Both the position numbers and the translations under genes were made by a program. The notes beneath the pieces were generated by a model. That model saw nothing but the letters and a program-made list of their open reading frames with translations. It had not been told where the DNA came from and made no database searches. Positions 1,697-9,389 of a DNA stretch of 64,000 nt are shown one piece after another. This DNA is from an uncultured Pelagibacteraceae bacterium (GTDB lineage Bacteria; Pseudomonadota; Alphaproteobacteria; Pelagibacterales; Pelagibacteraceae), in contig CACFYR010000001.1 of NCBI GenBank assembly GCA_902570505.1, positions 62,001 through 126,000 on the forward strand, written 5' to 3'. How positions within the stretch are numbered: the stretch's first letter is position 1; every line of letters starts with the position of its first letter.

Positions 1697-2323
1697 ATGA
1701 TTGATATAAGTGAATTAGAACCAATAGTTTTATTAATCGTAAGCAGTTTTTTGATTAGACAAACTTTAATTTATGCTAATCAAGGTTGGGCAAAATCTTA
1801 CTCTCAAACTATTTCTTTTTTCTTGCTTCCAATAATCACGTACGTAATTACAAAAACAATCTCAGGAAATATTGCTTTATCTTTAGGGATGATTGGGGCT
1901 TTATCGATTGTAAGATTTAGACATCCAGTGAAAAGTGCGCTTGAATTGATTATATATTTTGATCTTATAACTTTGGGTATAGCTACCTCTGTTAGAACTA
2001 AATGGTCAATACAGCTTGTTCTTGTAACTATTTTGGTAATATTATTTGTTAAATTTTTAGGTAATTACTTTAAAAGTAAAGGTAAGTCGTTTTATAATAT
2101 CTCTTTTAATGAGGGAATAGAACACCATGATCTAGAAATTTATGCAAGTGATTATGTTGAGGCTTTAGAGAACAGCAAATTTTTAAAAAATATGATTAAT
2201 GATAAAGAGAACAAAGAATTTATTTATAAACTTTCTTTTGAAAGAAAAGAAGATTTAATTGAGTTTAAAAAGAAAATCGAAAATGAGAAACCAATTAAAA
2301 AAATTGAAGCACAAATATTATAA
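1697..2323 (+). CDS. DUF4956-family membrane protein
   Basis: Membrane segments plus SLGMIGALSIVRFRHPVKSALELIIYFDLITLGIA, typical of DUF4956; adjacent to CotH-like and VTC genes. Confidence 0.8.
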   Translation: MIDISELEPIVLLIVSSFLIRQTLIYANQGWAKSYSQTISFFLLPIITYVITKTISGNIALSLGMIGALSIVRFRHPVKSALELIIYFDLITLGIATSVRTKWSIQLVLVTILVILFVKFLGNYFKSKGKSFYNISFNEGIEHHDLEIYASDYVEALENSKFLKNMINDKENKEFIYKLSFERKEDLIEFKKKIENEKPIKKIEAQIL

Positions 2324-4589
2324 TTTAGTCTCAAATTGCAAAGTTTTATCAATTTTATTTATTATAATTAATCTCATTACAGTTAACTCTTATGCAAATG
2401 AGTACAAATCTTGTGAAGTAAACGATAAATTTAAAATAAAAAGATTAGATATACATATTGATCAAAATAGGAAATGGGTTAAAAATAATACTAGAATTCT
2501 CGTAAGTAATACTAGAAATATTCCAAAAAAATTAAGAAAAAGATATAATGGAAAAATAATAGTAAACTATACAAATGGCTCAAAGTGTTCTTTGGAGGGA
2601 AGAATAAGACAAAGTGGAGATTTTAAGGATCATTTTGTTTATACAAATAACTCAATAAAACAATCTTTAGATATTAACCTATCGAATGGTAATATTGCTG
2701 GAATAGTAAGTTTTAAGTTATTGTTGGATGGCACGAGAGGTATCTCCAATGATGAAATATTTTTAACTGAATTGTTAAGGGAATTAAATTTTATATCACC
2801 TAGAACTCAAATGGTAGAAGCCACTATAAATGGCTTAAATACAAAAATGTTATTTCAAGAAAATTCTAAAAAGGAGTTGTTAGAATATAATGGAAAAATA
2901 GAAAGCGCAATTTACGAGTCGAATGAAAGTGATTACTTTAAAATATATGAAAAATTTGAGGATAATAATTTAACAAACGATGAAATAGGTTTAACTAAAG
3001 AGCTTGACCAGGCTTTGAAGGGTTTACTAGCAAGACAAACTAATTCAAAATGGGCACTGAAGGGTGCTATTCATTCAAAAATTTCTTTTGACGCTTTGTC
3101 AAATCTTAATTTAATTTACATTAATTCAGTAAAAGGTGTTTACAACGACAAATTTGATAATACTTTTTTAGGCAATCAAATTAAAAAAAATATAATTAAT
3201 TTAGATAAATACAATCTTATCCTTAAATCTGCTAACGCTGATCATGCTCTAATATCACACAACAGAAAATTCTATTGGAATAAATTAGAGGAATATTTCG
3301 AGCCTATTTATTACGATGGAAATCCGAATATTTACAAAAATGAAAACATCAAACTAGATTCTCCGGTGAGTTTATACATTAAAGAAGCTTTTAATGAATT
3401 AACTTACAATTTAACAAATATTGACTTAATTAATTTTAAAAAAAAAATGGATAATAACAATTTAAATTTTACCGACCAAGAAATAAGAGATAAAATATCA
3501 ATAATTTTAAATAATCTTTCAACATTAGAAAAAGAAATTAATAATTTTAAATTAGACACTAAACAAAAAAAAGATTTAGAGGTTAATGAAAATATTGTAA
3601 AAAAAGCAATTCAAAATAAAAAAAATAACAACTCCGAAGGTGTTTTTATTTTCAAAAAAAATGAATTTGATGAAAACTTTTTAAACTGCAGAGAATATGA
3701 AGAATGTAGTGTTATTAACTTAGATAATATTGATCAAGCTAAATTAATTGCTGGAGACTTAATTATAGAAAATAAAGAATATATTTACTTGGGATATTAT
3801 CCTAACTTGATAACAAACAATCAGGAGAGAAAATTTAATTACAAAAAGTTAGATTCTAGTGAAATTAATTTTTATTTTAATGATGGGATTGAATACAAAT
3901 TTGATGAAGAAAATAATGAATTAGAAATATCTCAAAAAATCCCTGAGGCAAGAGCATACTTTTTAGATAGCAATATAAACAATTTAAAAATTAAATTTAA
4001 AGGTTTTGGATCTTCTAAAGAACTTAAATCATTCCCATTTGATTTTAAAGGACTTACGGGATGTTTAACTTTTTATAATTCAAAACTAAAAGACATTAAT
4101 TTAGAATTCGAAAATTCAAATTGTGAAGACTCAATTAACATGGTTAATGTTAGTGGAGAAATAAATAGCATATTAGTCAAAAATTCATTATCCGACGCTC
4201 TTGATATGGACTTTTCTAAAATAACTGTAAATGAAGTTAAAATTGAAAATTCAAAGAACGATTGTCTAGATGTTTCATTCGGAGAATATGAATTTAAAAA
4301 TTTAGAGCTGGATATTTGTGGAGATAAAGGTTTATCAGTTGGAGAAACATCTAATATATTTGTTGAAAATATTAGTGTTAATAATTCTTCAATTGGTGTT
4401 GCATCAAAGGATGGCTCAATAACAAATATTTTAAATTCAAAATTTAATAATGTGGATACTTGTTTAGAGTCGTACAATAAAAAACAGGAATTTTCAGGTG
4501 GATATATTAAAGTTGATAAATTTAGTTGTTCTAATTTTACAAAAAAAATAGCTCTTGATTCTCAATCGGAAATTATAATTAAAAATTAA
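2283..4589 (+). CDS. Secreted CotH-kinase-like protein with C-terminal repetitive (beta-helix-like) region
   Basis: Likely start at the internal Met at 2283 (MRNQLKK...) followed by a signal-like hydrophobic segment; FKLLLDGTRGISNDEIFLTELLRELNFISPRTQMVEATING resembles the CotH core; the C-terminal half is N/S-rich and parallel-beta-helix-like; overlaps the DUF4956 gene. Confidence 0.6.
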   Translation: MRNQLKKLKHKYYNLVSNCKVLSILFIIINLITVNSYANEYKSCEVNDKFKIKRLDIHIDQNRKWVKNNTRILVSNTRNIPKKLRKRYNGKIIVNYTNGSKCSLEGRIRQSGDFKDHFVYTNNSIKQSLDINLSNGNIAGIVSFKLLLDGTRGISNDEIFLTELLRELNFISPRTQMVEATINGLNTKMLFQENSKKELLEYNGKIESAIYESNESDYFKIYEKFEDNNLTNDEIGLTKELDQALKGLLARQTNSKWALKGAIHSKISFDALSNLNLIYINSVKGVYNDKFDNTFLGNQIKKNIINLDKYNLILKSANADHALISHNRKFYWNKLEEYFEPIYYDGNPNIYKNENIKLDSPVSLYIKEAFNELTYNLTNIDLINFKKKMDNNNLNFTDQEIRDKISIILNNLSTLEKEINNFKLDTKQKKDLEVNENIVKKAIQNKKNNNSEGVFIFKKNEFDENFLNCREYEECSVINLDNIDQAKLIAGDLIIENKEYIYLGYYPNLITNNQERKFNYKKLDSSEINFYFNDGIEYKFDEENNELEISQKIPEARAYFLDSNINNLKIKFKGFGSSKELKSFPFDFKGLTGCLTFYNSKLKDINLEFENSNCEDSINMVNVSGEINSILVKNSLSDALDMDFSKITVNEVKIENSKNDCLDVSFGEYEFKNLELDICGDKGLSVGETSNIFVENISVNNSSIGVASKDGSITNILNSKFNNVDTCLESYNKKQEFSGGYIKVDKFSCSNFTKKIALDSQSEIIIKN

Positions 4590-4591
4590 AC

Positions 4592-5182
4592 ATGTCTTTT
4601 AGAATAGAGCAAAAAATTTTGATTGAAAAAAATCAAATAATTGAATTTAAAAAATTATATAAAGAAAAATCAATAAAAAAATTATATCCCTCAAGAATAA
4701 TTAGAAGTTTATATTTGGAGAACTTAAATAAAGATATGTATGCTAATTCTATAGAAGGTGTAGTCCCGAGAAAAAAAATAAGAATAAGAAATTACCCCAA
4801 TGAAAAAAATGGAAAGTTTTACCTAGAAAAAAAGATATCCAGTGTTGAGGGAAGATTTAAAGAGAAAAAGGAAATTGATATTTTAAAACTTGAGAAAATA
4901 TTAAAGACAGGAATTTATGATTATGACTATGGTCTTTGTAAACCATTACTATATGTAGAGTATCAGAGAAGTTATTATATTTTAGGTCAATCGCGAGTTA
5001 CCCATGATAACAAAATTAAATATTATAGATTTGGAAATAAATTAATTAAACATGATGAAAATGAAATCTTTGAAATTAAAACCAATTATCGAGCCGATTT
5101 AGATAAATTAAATCAAACATTTCCAATGGATAGAACAAGATTTTCAAAATATTGTAATGCATTTGAAAAACTTTTTGTTTAA
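4592..5182 (+). CDS. VTC-domain (polyphosphate polymerase-like) protein
   Basis: FRIEQKILI...RSLYLEN...RKKIRIRNYPN..KFYLEKKISSVEGRFKEKKEI...PLLYVEYQRSYYI...FEIKTNYRADL: TTM/VTC tunnel-domain pattern. Confidence 0.72.
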   Translation: MSFRIEQKILIEKNQIIEFKKLYKEKSIKKLYPSRIIRSLYLENLNKDMYANSIEGVVPRKKIRIRNYPNEKNGKFYLEKKISSVEGRFKEKKEIDILKLEKILKTGIYDYDYGLCKPLLYVEYQRSYYILGQSRVTHDNKIKYYRFGNKLIKHDENEIFEIKTNYRADLDKLNQTFPMDRTRFSKYCNAFEKLFV

Positions 5183-6069
5183 GAAGTTTCTTTCTTTAAT
5201 AAATCCCATAAACCGTCGGCTCTATCATCAATTGGTAAACAAAATTCAACAAGATTGTTAAGACGACCCAGTGTTTCTTTACATTCATGATTTATTATAT
5301 TTCCATCAATATCAAAAAAAATTGGTTCCAAGGTGTTTAAATTAACCACATTATTTGCCCAACCAGATCCAATACCAGAACAAATAAATGTGTTACTTTT
5401 GAAAATTGTTTTAGCATAAGAGAATCTATCTTTAAATGCACCACAATCTCCTGCTAAATATATATTATCTTTACCAAAATTAATTTTTTTGATTTCATTC
5501 CTTTCTATAATTTTTGAGTTATACATGCTGTTTGCAATAGGAATTTGTATTGAGTTAAAAAGTTTAATTTTATAATTAATTTTTTCAATCATTGTGCTAT
5601 TTGGTAAATTATGAGGAAGATCAGAAAATAATCTTAAATACCAAATATAATGTTGTACTATTATAGTATTACTCAATTTTATTAAATTTTTTTTTTCAAA
5701 AATCATATCTTCATTCATGTCAAGATTGTAAACAGAATAACCATTAATTTTTTTATACCGCCAAAAAGGAATTTTTTTAAAGAGCTCACCATCATGATTG
5801 CCTCTTACTGCAAGGTACCCAAAGTTTTTAAAATAATTTTTGAAAATCTCGAAATTTTCCTCCTTCTCTGTAAGATCTCCACCAAATATTATAAAGTTTG
5901 GATTATTTTTTTTTAAAAAATTCGACAACGACTTATCTGGTATATCTAAATTACCATGGTAACCATAAGCATGACCAATAAAATAAGAATTTTTTTCTAA
6001 TGAATAAGAATTATTTGTAATAACCAAAAAAAAGAAGGCTAATGTTAAAAAATTTATATAATTTTTCAT
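5179..6069 (-). CDS. Secreted metallophosphoesterase-like protein
   Basis: Signal peptide followed by FIIFGGDLTEKEENF, VRGNHDGE and YLAGDCGAF metallophosphoesterase motifs. Confidence 0.75.
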   Translation of the reverse strand: MKNYINFLTLAFFFLVITNNSYSLEKNSYFIGHAYGYHGNLDIPDKSLSNFLKKNNPNFIIFGGDLTEKEENFEIFKNYFKNFGYLAVRGNHDGELFKKIPFWRYKKINGYSVYNLDMNEDMIFEKKNLIKLSNTIIVQHYIWYLRLFSDLPHNLPNSTMIEKINYKIKLFNSIQIPIANSMYNSKIIERNEIKKINFGKDNIYLAGDCGAFKDRFSYAKTIFKSNTFICSGIGSGWANNVVNLNTLEPIFFDIDGNIINHECKETLGRLNNLVEFCLPIDDRADGLWDLLKKETS

Positions 6070-6256
6070 AAAAAATAATTTTAAATTATTAAAAGCTTTA
6101 GTATTAATTTAATAAAATAATATATCAAATGACAAATAAAAATTAAAACTAAATGCAGTATTGGTTAATGAAACCAACACTTGTGATACATCGTTAAGAC
6201 TCTACCGACTCCCACTAACCTTTGCCTTATCTTTTCAATTAGAAATGTTGATTAAA

Positions 6257-6272
6257 GCTGATTATAATCAGC
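6257..6272. repeat. Perfect 16-bp palindrome GCTGATTATAATCAGC
   Basis: Sequence equals its own reverse complement; lies just upstream of the left island repeat. Confidence 0.75.
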
Positions 6273-6275
6273 AAA

Positions 6276-6299
6276 TGCATAGTACGTTGCATAGTACGA
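6276..6299 (+). repeat. Left flanking direct repeat, tandem 12-mer: TGCATAGTACGT TGCATAGTACGA
   Basis: 21/24 identical to 8875-8898 (TGTATAGTGCTTTGCATAGTACGA). Confidence 0.8.
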
Positions 6300-6383
6300 A
6301 ACTTACTCAAATTTTCGCCATTATTAATTGTTATATTAATAATTGTTAAAGTTCGTATTCAGAATTTTAATAACTCCAAACAT

Positions 6384-6719
6384 ATGCAATTAGAACTATT
6401 CGATTATAGAAGGGATCGCCTTTTCGACTCTGAAAATCAAATTGCTCATTATTATGATGTATTGAGTGAAACTCACGACTCAATTAGTTATTCAGAGCAT
6501 ATTGATCCTAAAAAAGGATACGCAATTTGTGGAATGGAATATGAAGAATATGTGGATGTAAAAAAGGATAAATTGGGCGGATTAACCTATGACCAGATAC
6601 TCAGTTATTTAAAAGATGCTAAAAAAGAAGATAGACTAGAAAAATACAAGGCACTTTTAAAATTTAGAAATATACCTTTTGAAGCAGACCTCTTTACATG
6701 GAACAATGACGACTTGTAA
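6384..6719 (+). CDS. Hypothetical 111-aa protein, first ORF of the RM-like island
   Basis: ORF MQLELFDYRRDRLFDSENQIAHYYD...; same strand and just upstream of the methyltransferase; no recognised domain. Confidence 0.55.
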   Translation: MQLELFDYRRDRLFDSENQIAHYYDVLSETHDSISYSEHIDPKKGYAICGMEYEEYVDVKKDKLGGLTYDQILSYLKDAKKEDRLEKYKALLKFRNIPFEADLFTWNNDDL

Positions 6720-6772
6720 TAAGCTAATATTTTTTAGCTGCAAATTTTTTTGTTTAGTGTAATAAATACTTT

Positions 6773-7825
6773 ATGTTTCGATTCAAACTTGCAGAATTTT
6801 TTAGTGGGCCCGGTGGTATGGGCTACGGTGCAGGATTAAGTAAAGTAAAGGGTAGCTCAATAGAACATGCTTGGGCATCAGATTATGACCAGGACTCCTG
6901 TGATACCTATAAAAGAAACATTAAAACAAAAGCTGTTTTTTGTGAAAAAGTAGAAAATTTTTTTAATCTAGTCGATAATAAGAAAATTATTCTCCCAAAA
7001 TTTGATTGCTTTGCTTATGGTTTTCCTTGTAACGATTTTAGTAATGTTGGTGAGCACTTGGGCTTTAAGGGTAAATTTGGCCCTCTATACTCTTATGGTG
7101 TTGAATTAATTAATCGATATCATCCAAAGTGGTTTGTTGCAGAAAATGTTGGGGGAATTAAAAGTTCAAACGAAGGTAAAAGTTTTATAAAAATCTTAAA
7201 AGATCTAAAGGGTGCTGGGAAAGGTTACAATTTAACTGTTCACAAATATAAATTCGAAGAATATGGAATTCCACAAGCCCGTCATAGAATTATTATTGTT
7301 GGAATAAAAAAAGAACTAAATCTTATATTTAAAGTTCCAAAACCGAATTACAAAACAATGACAGCTAAAGAAGCTTTAAACAATATACCTACAAATGCTC
7401 ATAACAATGAATTAACTAAAAACTCAAAACAAGTAATTGAAAGATTAAAATATATCAAACCAGGTAAAAGTGCTTTTAATTCTAATATTCCAAAGAAATT
7501 AAGACTAAATGTAAAAGGAGCAAAGATAAGTCAAATCTATAGAAGATTAGATCCTAATAAACCTTCCTATACAGTTACTGGAAGTGGTGGTGGTGGAACC
7601 CATGTTTATCATTGGAAAGAAAATAGAGCATTAACCAATAGAGAAAGGGCAAGACTACAAACCTTTCCTGATAATTTTATATTTGAGGGCTCAAAAGAAA
7701 GTGTTCGAAAGCAAATTGGTATGGCAGTACCTGTAAATGGCGCTAGAATAATATTTGAAGCTATACTAAAAACCTTTGAAAATATTAGCTATTCAACGAT
7801 AGATACTAATTTAGAAGATATATAA
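6773..7825 (+). CDS. DNA (cytosine-5-)-methyltransferase
   Basis: FSGPGGMGYG (motif I), YGFPCNDFS (IV, catalytic PC), ENVGG (VI), IPQARHRIIIVG (VIII), RARLQTFPD (IX), QIGMAVPVNGA (X). Confidence 0.95.
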   Translation: MFRFKLAEFFSGPGGMGYGAGLSKVKGSSIEHAWASDYDQDSCDTYKRNIKTKAVFCEKVENFFNLVDNKKIILPKFDCFAYGFPCNDFSNVGEHLGFKGKFGPLYSYGVELINRYHPKWFVAENVGGIKSSNEGKSFIKILKDLKGAGKGYNLTVHKYKFEEYGIPQARHRIIIVGIKKELNLIFKVPKPNYKTMTAKEALNNIPTNAHNNELTKNSKQVIERLKYIKPGKSAFNSNIPKKLRLNVKGAKISQIYRRLDPNKPSYTVTGSGGGGTHVYHWKENRALTNRERARLQTFPDNFIFEGSKESVRKQIGMAVPVNGARIIFEAILKTFENISYSTIDTNLEDI

Positions 7826-7867
7826 AAAAACTACAGACTCCTGTTAATAAAGTTTTTATACTTTTTC

Positions 7868-8872
7868 ATGGCTATAAATAAAAAAGATAGAGAGCTATAT
7901 AAAAAATATTCCCCAAAATTGGCCGAAACATTAAAACTTCCAAACAACGAAAAATTTATAGATGATTATTTTTCAAAAATTATGATTGGATCAGAAATTG
8001 AAAGTCTAAATGATGATAGCTTTGAAGATTGGTTAGAAAATAGACTTAAACCTAATTTAATATTTTTGAACGAAAAAGATTATTTAGAAATGGCAATTGA
8101 AGCCTTAGAAACTACTGGAAATATTGCTAAAACAAATTTTGGCTCAGCTCAACAAAGAGATGAGATGGCCTTATGGATTAATAAAATAACTGGTTATCTT
8201 GGAGAGCTTGCTTTTAAAAAAAAATTAATCAAAGATTTTAATCTAGATTGTAAACTGCCTCACAGTGCCAGTACTGCAGAAGAAAATATGCCTTCTGATA
8301 TTCCATTAATAAAATATGTTAATGAAGAAAGTTTTAGAGAACCAAATCTTAAAATTAGTATTAAACAAACTAAGTGGAGTGGTGTTTGGTTAGATCTGGG
8401 AACTCAGCATGAGAAAAGTGATATTTATGTTCAAGTTAAAGTAAATACTGGAGCAAATCTTTTTATGTCTTATCTAAATCGCTTGGGTTTTTTTAAAGAT
8501 ATCTTTTTAAAAAAAGGTGTAGATGAAAAAATTATAACTGAAAAAAAAAAAGATATAATTTCAGCCACAATAAAGAAATTTGAAAATCATTCTTTATTTG
8601 CTTACGTGGCTGGTTTTACAAAAATAGAAGATACTACCTTTAATCATGAAGGAGAAAAAAAAACTGGAACAAAATGGAAAATATATCATATCAAAAAAGC
8701 TGAGGGCTTACTTACTCAAAAAATTTTAGACGATATAAAAAGCGAAAATGATGTTGATAAAATTAACATTGTTCCTATCGAGAAATTTAGTACTTACCCA
8801 AGATATATTGTAAGTATTTCAAAATTAAATTATAAAAAAGAAGATTGGGAAAAAATTATTAACCAACTTTAA
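7868..8872 (+). CDS. Putative type II restriction endonuclease partner
   Basis: Directly downstream of the m5C MTase on the same strand; GYLGELAFKKKL ... KSDIYVQVKV is compatible with a PD-(D/E)XK-like core; assignment is mostly contextual. Confidence 0.6.
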   Translation: MAINKKDRELYKKYSPKLAETLKLPNNEKFIDDYFSKIMIGSEIESLNDDSFEDWLENRLKPNLIFLNEKDYLEMAIEALETTGNIAKTNFGSAQQRDEMALWINKITGYLGELAFKKKLIKDFNLDCKLPHSASTAEENMPSDIPLIKYVNEESFREPNLKISIKQTKWSGVWLDLGTQHEKSDIYVQVKVNTGANLFMSYLNRLGFFKDIFLKKGVDEKIITEKKKDIISATIKKFENHSLFAYVAGFTKIEDTTFNHEGEKKTGTKWKIYHIKKAEGLLTQKILDDIKSENDVDKINIVPIEKFSTYPRYIVSISKLNYKKEDWEKIINQL

Positions 8873-8874
8873 AA

Positions 8875-8898
8875 TGTATAGTGCTTTGCATAGTACGA
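8875..8898 (+). repeat. Right flanking direct repeat of the island
   Basis: TGTATAGTGCTTTGCATAGTACGA, 21/24 match to 6276-6299 including an exact 13-mer TTGCATAGTACGA. Confidence 0.8.
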
Positions 8899-8969
8899 GT
8901 TAGAAAAAAACCAAGGAAAATGAAACACCGATGATTCGAAAATGGCGTAAACATTGGAGAAACAATTAG

Positions 8970-9389
8970 ATGAAGTACTGGTTACTTAAGTCAGAGCCGG
9001 ATGTATGGTCAATAGATGAACAAATCAAATCAGGTAAAAAAGGTACTACCTGGGATGGTGTAAGAAATTATCAAGCCAAAAATAATTTGCTTAAAATGAA
9101 AATTGGCGATTTATGTTTTTTTTATCACTCTAATATAGGAAAAGAAATTGTTGGAATTGTAAAGGTAATTAAAGAGGCTTTTATTGATCCAACAGACAAA
9201 CAAAAAAAATTTGTTGCTGTTAAAGTAAAGTTTGTAAAAAAACTAAATATACCTGTTACTCTGGAAAATATGAAGAAAATTAAAGCTTTAGGTGAGCTTT
9301 CTTTAATAAAACAAAGCAGATTATCCGTGATGCCTATTGATACTAAATGCTGGAAAATTATTTTGAAGATGGGTAAAATAAAATTATAA
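8970..9389 (+). CDS. EVE (PUA-like) domain protein
   Basis: [18 protein letters not shown]...[28 protein letters not shown]: canonical EVE-domain sequence. Confidence 0.93.

Follow-up and report, generated by a model that had tools for sequence, protein, structure and literature searches.

A 64,000-nucleotide (nt) stretch of contig CACFYR010000001.1 (positions 62,001 to 126,000; assembly GCA_902570505.1 of an uncultured Pelagibacteraceae bacterium), referred to here as the window, contains three co-directional open reading frames (ORFs), all on the forward strand, between two copies of a 24-nt repeat. The ORFs lie downstream of tsaD and directly upstream of a gene encoding an EVE-domain protein, and they include a predicted restriction-modification (RM) pair. 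SAR11 bacteria are among the most abundant bacterial groups and restriction systems are regarded as uncommon in their streamlined genomes. We compared this island and its borders with related genomes, many of which are incomplete single-cell or metagenome assemblies; the assembly of the bacterium itself, as examined here, is 906 kb long and 77% complete. Compared genomes are labeled G (G000 being the own genome) and loci are labeled L. The features of the island, including the attachment (att) sites at its borders, are as follows.

6153-6173, forward strand: attL, a truncated copy of the first 21 nt of the EVE gene (ATGCAGTATTGGTTAATGAAA)
6157-6181, no strand assigned: inverted repeat across the attL junction, AGTATTGGTT-AATGA-AACCAACACT (9 of 10 pairs), a candidate recombinase core site
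6174-6299, forward strand: left end (LE), including the left 24-mer
6276-6299, forward strand: left 24-mer, two tandem 12-mers, a subterminal repeat
6384-6719, forward strand: ORF1, 111 amino acids (aa), no family recognized, first cargo gene
6773-7825, forward strand: C5-cytosine (m5C) DNA methyltransferase, Type II, 350 aa (PF00145, E = 1.3e-72; PADLOC MTase_II, E = 2e-110)
7868-8872, forward strand: putative Type II restriction endonuclease, 334 aa (PADLOC REase_II, E = 2.6e-42)
8875-8898, forward strand: right 24-mer, 3 mismatches relative to the left copy, a subterminal repeat
8875-8969, forward strand: right end (RE), ending GGAGAAACAATTAG (alignment of 14 genomes)
8970-8990, forward strand: attR, the start of the intact EVE gene (ATGAAGTACTGGTTACTTAAG; flank comparison)
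8970-9389, forward strand: EVE-domain gene, the insertion target (PF01878, E = 9.7e-45)

A sequence-only reading of this DNA had proposed that the 24-mers exactly bracket the three genes and that the cassette moved by recombination between these repeats or by insertion at them. The repeat itself is real, as no match of this quality arose in any of 100 shuffled sequences, and addition of the preceding AAA extends it to a 27-nt direct repeat (6273-6299 and 8872-8898). Within the own assembly, the exact 12-mer TTGCATAGTACG occurs at these two places only, and an extra copy with one mismatch makes up the remaining half of the left 24-mer; the repeat is thus not a dispersed sequence. The 24-mers do bracket the cargo, but they are not the ends of the island. 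In flank comparisons among relatives, conservation runs outward from both 24-mers as far as two copies of the EVE gene start, and the 24-mers sit inside the conserved LE and RE, 71 to 102 nt from the att copies. The true ends of the island are these 21-nt copies (6153-6173 and 8970-8990), outside both 24-mers, and the element comprises 6174-8990, counting one att copy.

Empty sites supported this placement. In G037, G112, G122, L018, L031, and L032, nothing separates the tsaD stop codon from the EVE start, and none of these six relatives has the 24-mer, LE, or RE there. Among occupied sites, the left EVE-start copy overlaps the tsaD stop codon in G150, G240, and G277, which is the native position of the EVE gene. 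The presence of EVE-start copies at both ends, together with the empty sites in which tsaD is joined to EVE, therefore indicates that the element sits in the first codons of the EVE gene and restores the gene by supplying it with a new start. The proposal that the cassette inserted at the 24-mers was not supported in that form, because empty sites lack the 24-mer and the 24-mers travel as parts of the element ends; what survives of it is a mobile RM island without an integrase of its own.

The ends are conserved in their own right. Sequence models of the ends, run against 399 genomes of the genus, detected LE in 13 and RE in 23, and all 16 of the left ends found in the genus follow an EVE-start copy. 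The 117-nt block of LE up to the 24-mer has a mean column identity of 92% across 10 genomes, and RE supplies the EVE gene with a new ribosome-binding site (GGAG). No Rfam match was found in 6070-9000. A short peptide can also be encoded in RE at 8931-8969 (MIRKWRKHWRNN in the window), with its stop codon abutting the EVE start; a similar peptide ending in KHWRNN is kept at the RE of several relatives, and either a coding function or a conserved DNA site could account for it. A perfect palindrome, GCTGATTATAATCAGC, at 6258-6273 was dropped from consideration, as it is not retained in many other left ends.

The cargo of the island is, on good homology evidence, a predicted Type II RM pair plus ORF1. 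The methyltransferase also scored above the TIGR00675 cutoff and provides the DNA methyltransferase component of a Type II RM system. The putative endonuclease matched no Pfam domain, and its homologs adjoin m5C methyltransferases on a Thermus plasmid and in G042, a genome of the same genus in which the pair is convergent and located at a different locus. Like other Type II RM systems, the island has an m5C methyltransferase adjoining a protein of the REase_II family; it differs from the usual arrangement in having ORF1, which also occurs with other RM systems. The pair would restrict phage DNA. Members of the ORF1 family, of about 111 aa, lead islands with different RM systems (window 6384-6719, L064, L082, L081, L120, and L123; 97 to 51% identity), and ORF1 may be an RM-associated accessory protein or regulator. 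AlphaFold models of the endonuclease and ORF1 were too poor for use (predicted local distance difference test scores of 35 and 54, respectively).

The island is absent from most relatives, and apart from the own genome a homolog of the endonuclease is present in only 1 of 100 relatives, at another locus. No relatives of ORF1 were found in viral contigs by the method used, nor of the endonuclease in phages, and a plasmid BLAST search with the whole island returned only distant m5C methyltransferases among the matches listed. Family scans of the cargo proteins recognized no integrase or transposase, in agreement with the sequence-only reading. The segment between tsaD and attL (1697-6069) is a separate module with no LE or RE bounding it; it encodes a DUF4956 protein, an unknown 776-aa protein, a VTC-domain protein, and a calcineurin-like phosphoesterase.

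The same ends recur around other genes. In searches of relatives with the EVE gene and the 12-mer, two other genomes proved to have this 24-mer pair in the same position; the genes enclosed there differ in part or entirely. An exact scan for the RE-att junction, with one genome per species, returned 37 stretches; one came from a record titled only Alphaproteobacteria and the others from SAR11/Pelagibacteraceae records. RE stands in front of the EVE gene in nearly all of these stretches. Different cargo lies between these ends in dozens of Pelagibacteraceae genomes. Besides further m5C RM systems, it comprises an EcoRI-type methylase accompanied by a GmrSD-type protein, genes for NgoFVII, Eco57I, and N6-methylases, AlwI-type RM, a type ISP enzyme, parts resembling HsdR/HsdS, a PIF1 helicase, and unknown proteins. 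The sequence-only reading described RM systems as uncommon in SAR11-type genomes, but at the EVE site RM genes are not rare. Surface-sugar genes occur at sites with diverged or unrecognized left ends, such as L101, L110, and L116, whose diverged left ends start exactly after the same 21-nt EVE start; L101 encodes sialic-acid-type NeuB/NeuC-like proteins, as judged by eye. An island at L118 (2346-5156, in G106) encodes three proteins (323, 457, and 131 aa), none individually matched to a family, and is a candidate unknown defense system.

Mobility and site specificity of this element family are well supported. Tandem element-att-element arrays are present in G106 (L118), in AG-343-O17 (L111 with L093), and at L090, and G237 has three left ends in tandem. 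At L089, an element occupies another locus, before a proC-like gene, with the junctions AAGTAGTTTATTA-TTAAAACCAAC and ACTGGTTA-TAAAAACTTAC; the related, element-free intergenic region at L125 reads GTAGTTTGTTAAAAGGAC. The window and G150 share 1,631 bp, from attL into the methyltransferase gene, that are 92% identical in DNA, whereas their tsaD and EVE products are only 71 to 73% identical as proteins. This disparity indicates recent transfer between well-separated species. Also in G237, a left end at L083 (8699-8992) directly abuts the first ~55 codons of a disrupted m5C methyltransferase gene that is related to the one in the window, an arrangement that would result if one element had inserted into another.

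Across the family, the 24-mers are tandem 12-mers close to TTGnnnnGTACG that are confined to the vicinity of the two ends; the cargo diverges immediately inside them, and the sequence outside them is conserved. The variable letters of the left and right copies agree within each element (identity of 0.83 versus 0.74 when shuffled; 18 elements; reached in 4 of 100,000 shuffles), a test that overstates independence as the elements are mutually related. In G106, two adjoining elements have different 12-mer types, each matched left to right. The agreement of left and right types within elements fits a role of the 24-mers as probable subterminal binding sites of recombinases whose specificity differs by element type, comparable to the arm-type sites of phage integrases. 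The inverted repeat across attL resembles what is expected of a tyrosine recombinase core site: a 5-nt spacer was best in every element type tested, with shuffle P values from 0.001 to 0.38, although the repeat is less pronounced in some other elements. A Cre-like inverted repeat sought in attR alone was not significant (P = 0.33), and the one spanning attL was stronger.

No recombinase acting on the EVE att site came to light in the elements, beside the EVE gene, or in the phage and viral collections searched. A pooled scan of the other elements found no integrase, resolvase, or transposase among the 25 Pfam families listed of 39, with serine recombinases not searched genome-wide. A survey of 121 genomes of the genus for PF00589 proteins returned a lone Xer/Cre-like protein of 307 to 326 aa plus, in roughly a dozen of the genomes, larger integrases of the phage type. 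A 33-bp palindrome is the separate site of the lone recombinase, and it is present in one copy in 11 of the 12 genomes searched. In the own genome, its gene (~317 aa; G000:C29:3153-4140, L191) lies in a glycan-gene region, and the site, TTACTAATGATAA-TTAATTG-TTATCAATAGTAA, is just upstream; the site is also found at G012:C1:617602-617634 and elsewhere. Pelagibacter ubique has been stated to be without a dif/Xer system (PMC2731167), and the lone recombinase and its site could be a single-recombinase dif-like system. Because no integrase was recognized in the elements or located beside the EVE gene, and because the site of the lone recombinase differs, the mover is probably supplied in trans by an element outside the collections searched.

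We therefore consider it likely that the island is part of a Pelagibacteraceae family of small integrative elements that lack an integrase and resemble cis-mobilizable elements (CIMEs). Elements would be inserted and lost through site-specific recombination at the EVE-start att site, the recombinase, most likely a tyrosine recombinase, would come from another element, and the 24-mers would serve as its subterminal, arm-type-like binding sites. The attP of such a helper would read ATGAAGTACTGGTTANTNAAACCAACAC between two 12-mer pairs. Several observations weigh against this proposal, in addition to the relatedness of the elements mentioned above. No PF00589 protein lies beside the EVE gene in any of the 121 genomes. 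Scans with LE, attP-LE, RE-att, and the 12-mer pair detected no phage or viral contig bearing these ends, and a phage BLAST search with the two element ends returned nothing. (Viral matches at L085 and L086 were chance coding matches, and L138 to L140 were unrelated.) Empty sites and some diverged ends show the att inverted repeat only weakly, and in G277 and L106 the left and right 24-mer types do not match. Finally, L100 consists of LE, one core, and RE without cargo, with 216 bp from attL to attR; this is the single-repeat form that the sequence-only reading had predicted, and it also fits recombination between the 24-mers.

The cargo-less form is the reason to retain an unlikely alternative in which LE and RE stay in place at the EVE gene as a platform and cassettes enter and leave by recombination between the 24-mers. 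The divergence of cargo just inside the repeats and the agreement of left and right cores would also be expected from it. However, LE and RE are not fixed, since they are repeated with an att copy in tandem arrays and are present at a second locus, empty sites lack LE, RE, and 24-mer alike, and a core search across the elements found no arrays with internal cores. It is distinctly unlikely that, after one old insertion, cargo was exchanged solely by homologous recombination, with the conserved ends and the flanking genes providing the homology. Homologous recombination has been proposed for replacement genomic islands of aquatic prokaryotes (PMC4033161), and it would explain why the window and G150 agree from attL to within the methyltransferase gene and then have different endonucleases, and why the window and G240 part after ORF1. 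It does not yield tandem element-att-element arrays, precise empty sites, or insertion at another locus. Homologous recombination probably acts in addition to site-specific movement, reshuffling cargo.

Movement by the resident Xer/Cre-like recombinase is very improbable. Although it is the sole PF00589 protein in most genomes, it has the single-copy palindromic site described above, and the EVE att site and the 24-mer resemble that site no more than shuffled sequences do (P about 0.5). For the same reason, the elements do not fit integrative mobile elements exploiting Xer (IMEX), which integrate at the dif-like site of the resident recombinase. A different question concerns the role of the 24-mers only and leaves the mobility of the island untouched: it is possible, if doubtful, that they are operators or promoters for the cargo and the EVE gene. 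The left copy lies ~84 nt upstream of ORF1 and the right copy 71 nt upstream of the EVE gene, and a promoter-like pair ending in TATAAT (6240-6268) immediately precedes the left copy. Yet promoter-like matches are at background level (11 found versus 14.9 expected), EVE genes at empty sites do without the 24-mer, and the left and right types agree within elements.

Among known systems, the closest described case is that of the Dehalococcoides ssrA islands, which are arranged in tandem with 20-bp target repeats; 15 of them are without an integration module and were proposed to be cis-mobilizable (PMC3146451). Both families have tandem islands at one gene, target copies of ~20 bp, and members in which the integration gene is missing. 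In Dehalococcoides, the target is the 3′ end of ssrA and a serine recombinase module is present in many sister islands (PMC3146451), whereas the SAR11 elements target the 5′ end of a protein gene, have paired 12-mers at both ends, and have no recombinase-bearing sister that we could find. The elements have three features expected of CIMEs: direct copies of the chromosomal target at both ends (the EVE-start copies, with one copy in empty sites), no recombination or transfer genes of their own within the scope of the cargo scans given above, and accretion in tandem at the same site (G106/L118, L111 with L093, L090, and G237). A related mobilizing element with a recombinase was not found in the collections searched, and because no helper was found we refer to the elements as CIME-like and not as proven CIMEs.

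Other comparisons were less close. The tycheposons of Prochlorococcus use tRNA genes, and some members have tyrosine recombinases. Like similar marine integrative elements, they too bring small sets of cargo genes to fixed sites in marine bacteria with streamlined genomes, but the SAR11 elements use the EVE gene and carry no recombinase. Integron cassettes are similar in placing exchangeable cargo next to short repeated sites; in contrast, there is no integron integrase at the EVE site, there are no internal cores or multi-cassette arrays on single sites, and every unit comes with both ends complete and an att copy of its own. A DDE transposon was rejected, as the start of LE (ACCAACACTTG) and the end of RE (AACAATTAG) are not inverted repeats, the duplication is ~21 nt at one site, and no transposase was recognized among the families listed. 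We found no description of the SAR11 EVE site in the literature searched, where most subscription journals were not covered.

A more far-reaching idea, which we hold to be rather unlikely, is that SAR11 has a dedicated exchange site for defense genes, in which recombinase-free cassettes with conserved ends and 12-mer compatibility types share one EVE att site and are mobilized only by the recombinases of visiting phages or other elements. If this were true, infection itself would drive the swapping of defense systems. The family raises the testable question of which recombinase moves cassettes that carry none. A specific address at which RM and surface-sugar cassettes are swapped, with recognizable ends, offers a direct way to find SAR11 defense genes, and the same ends allow the turnover of these genes to be measured in metagenomes.
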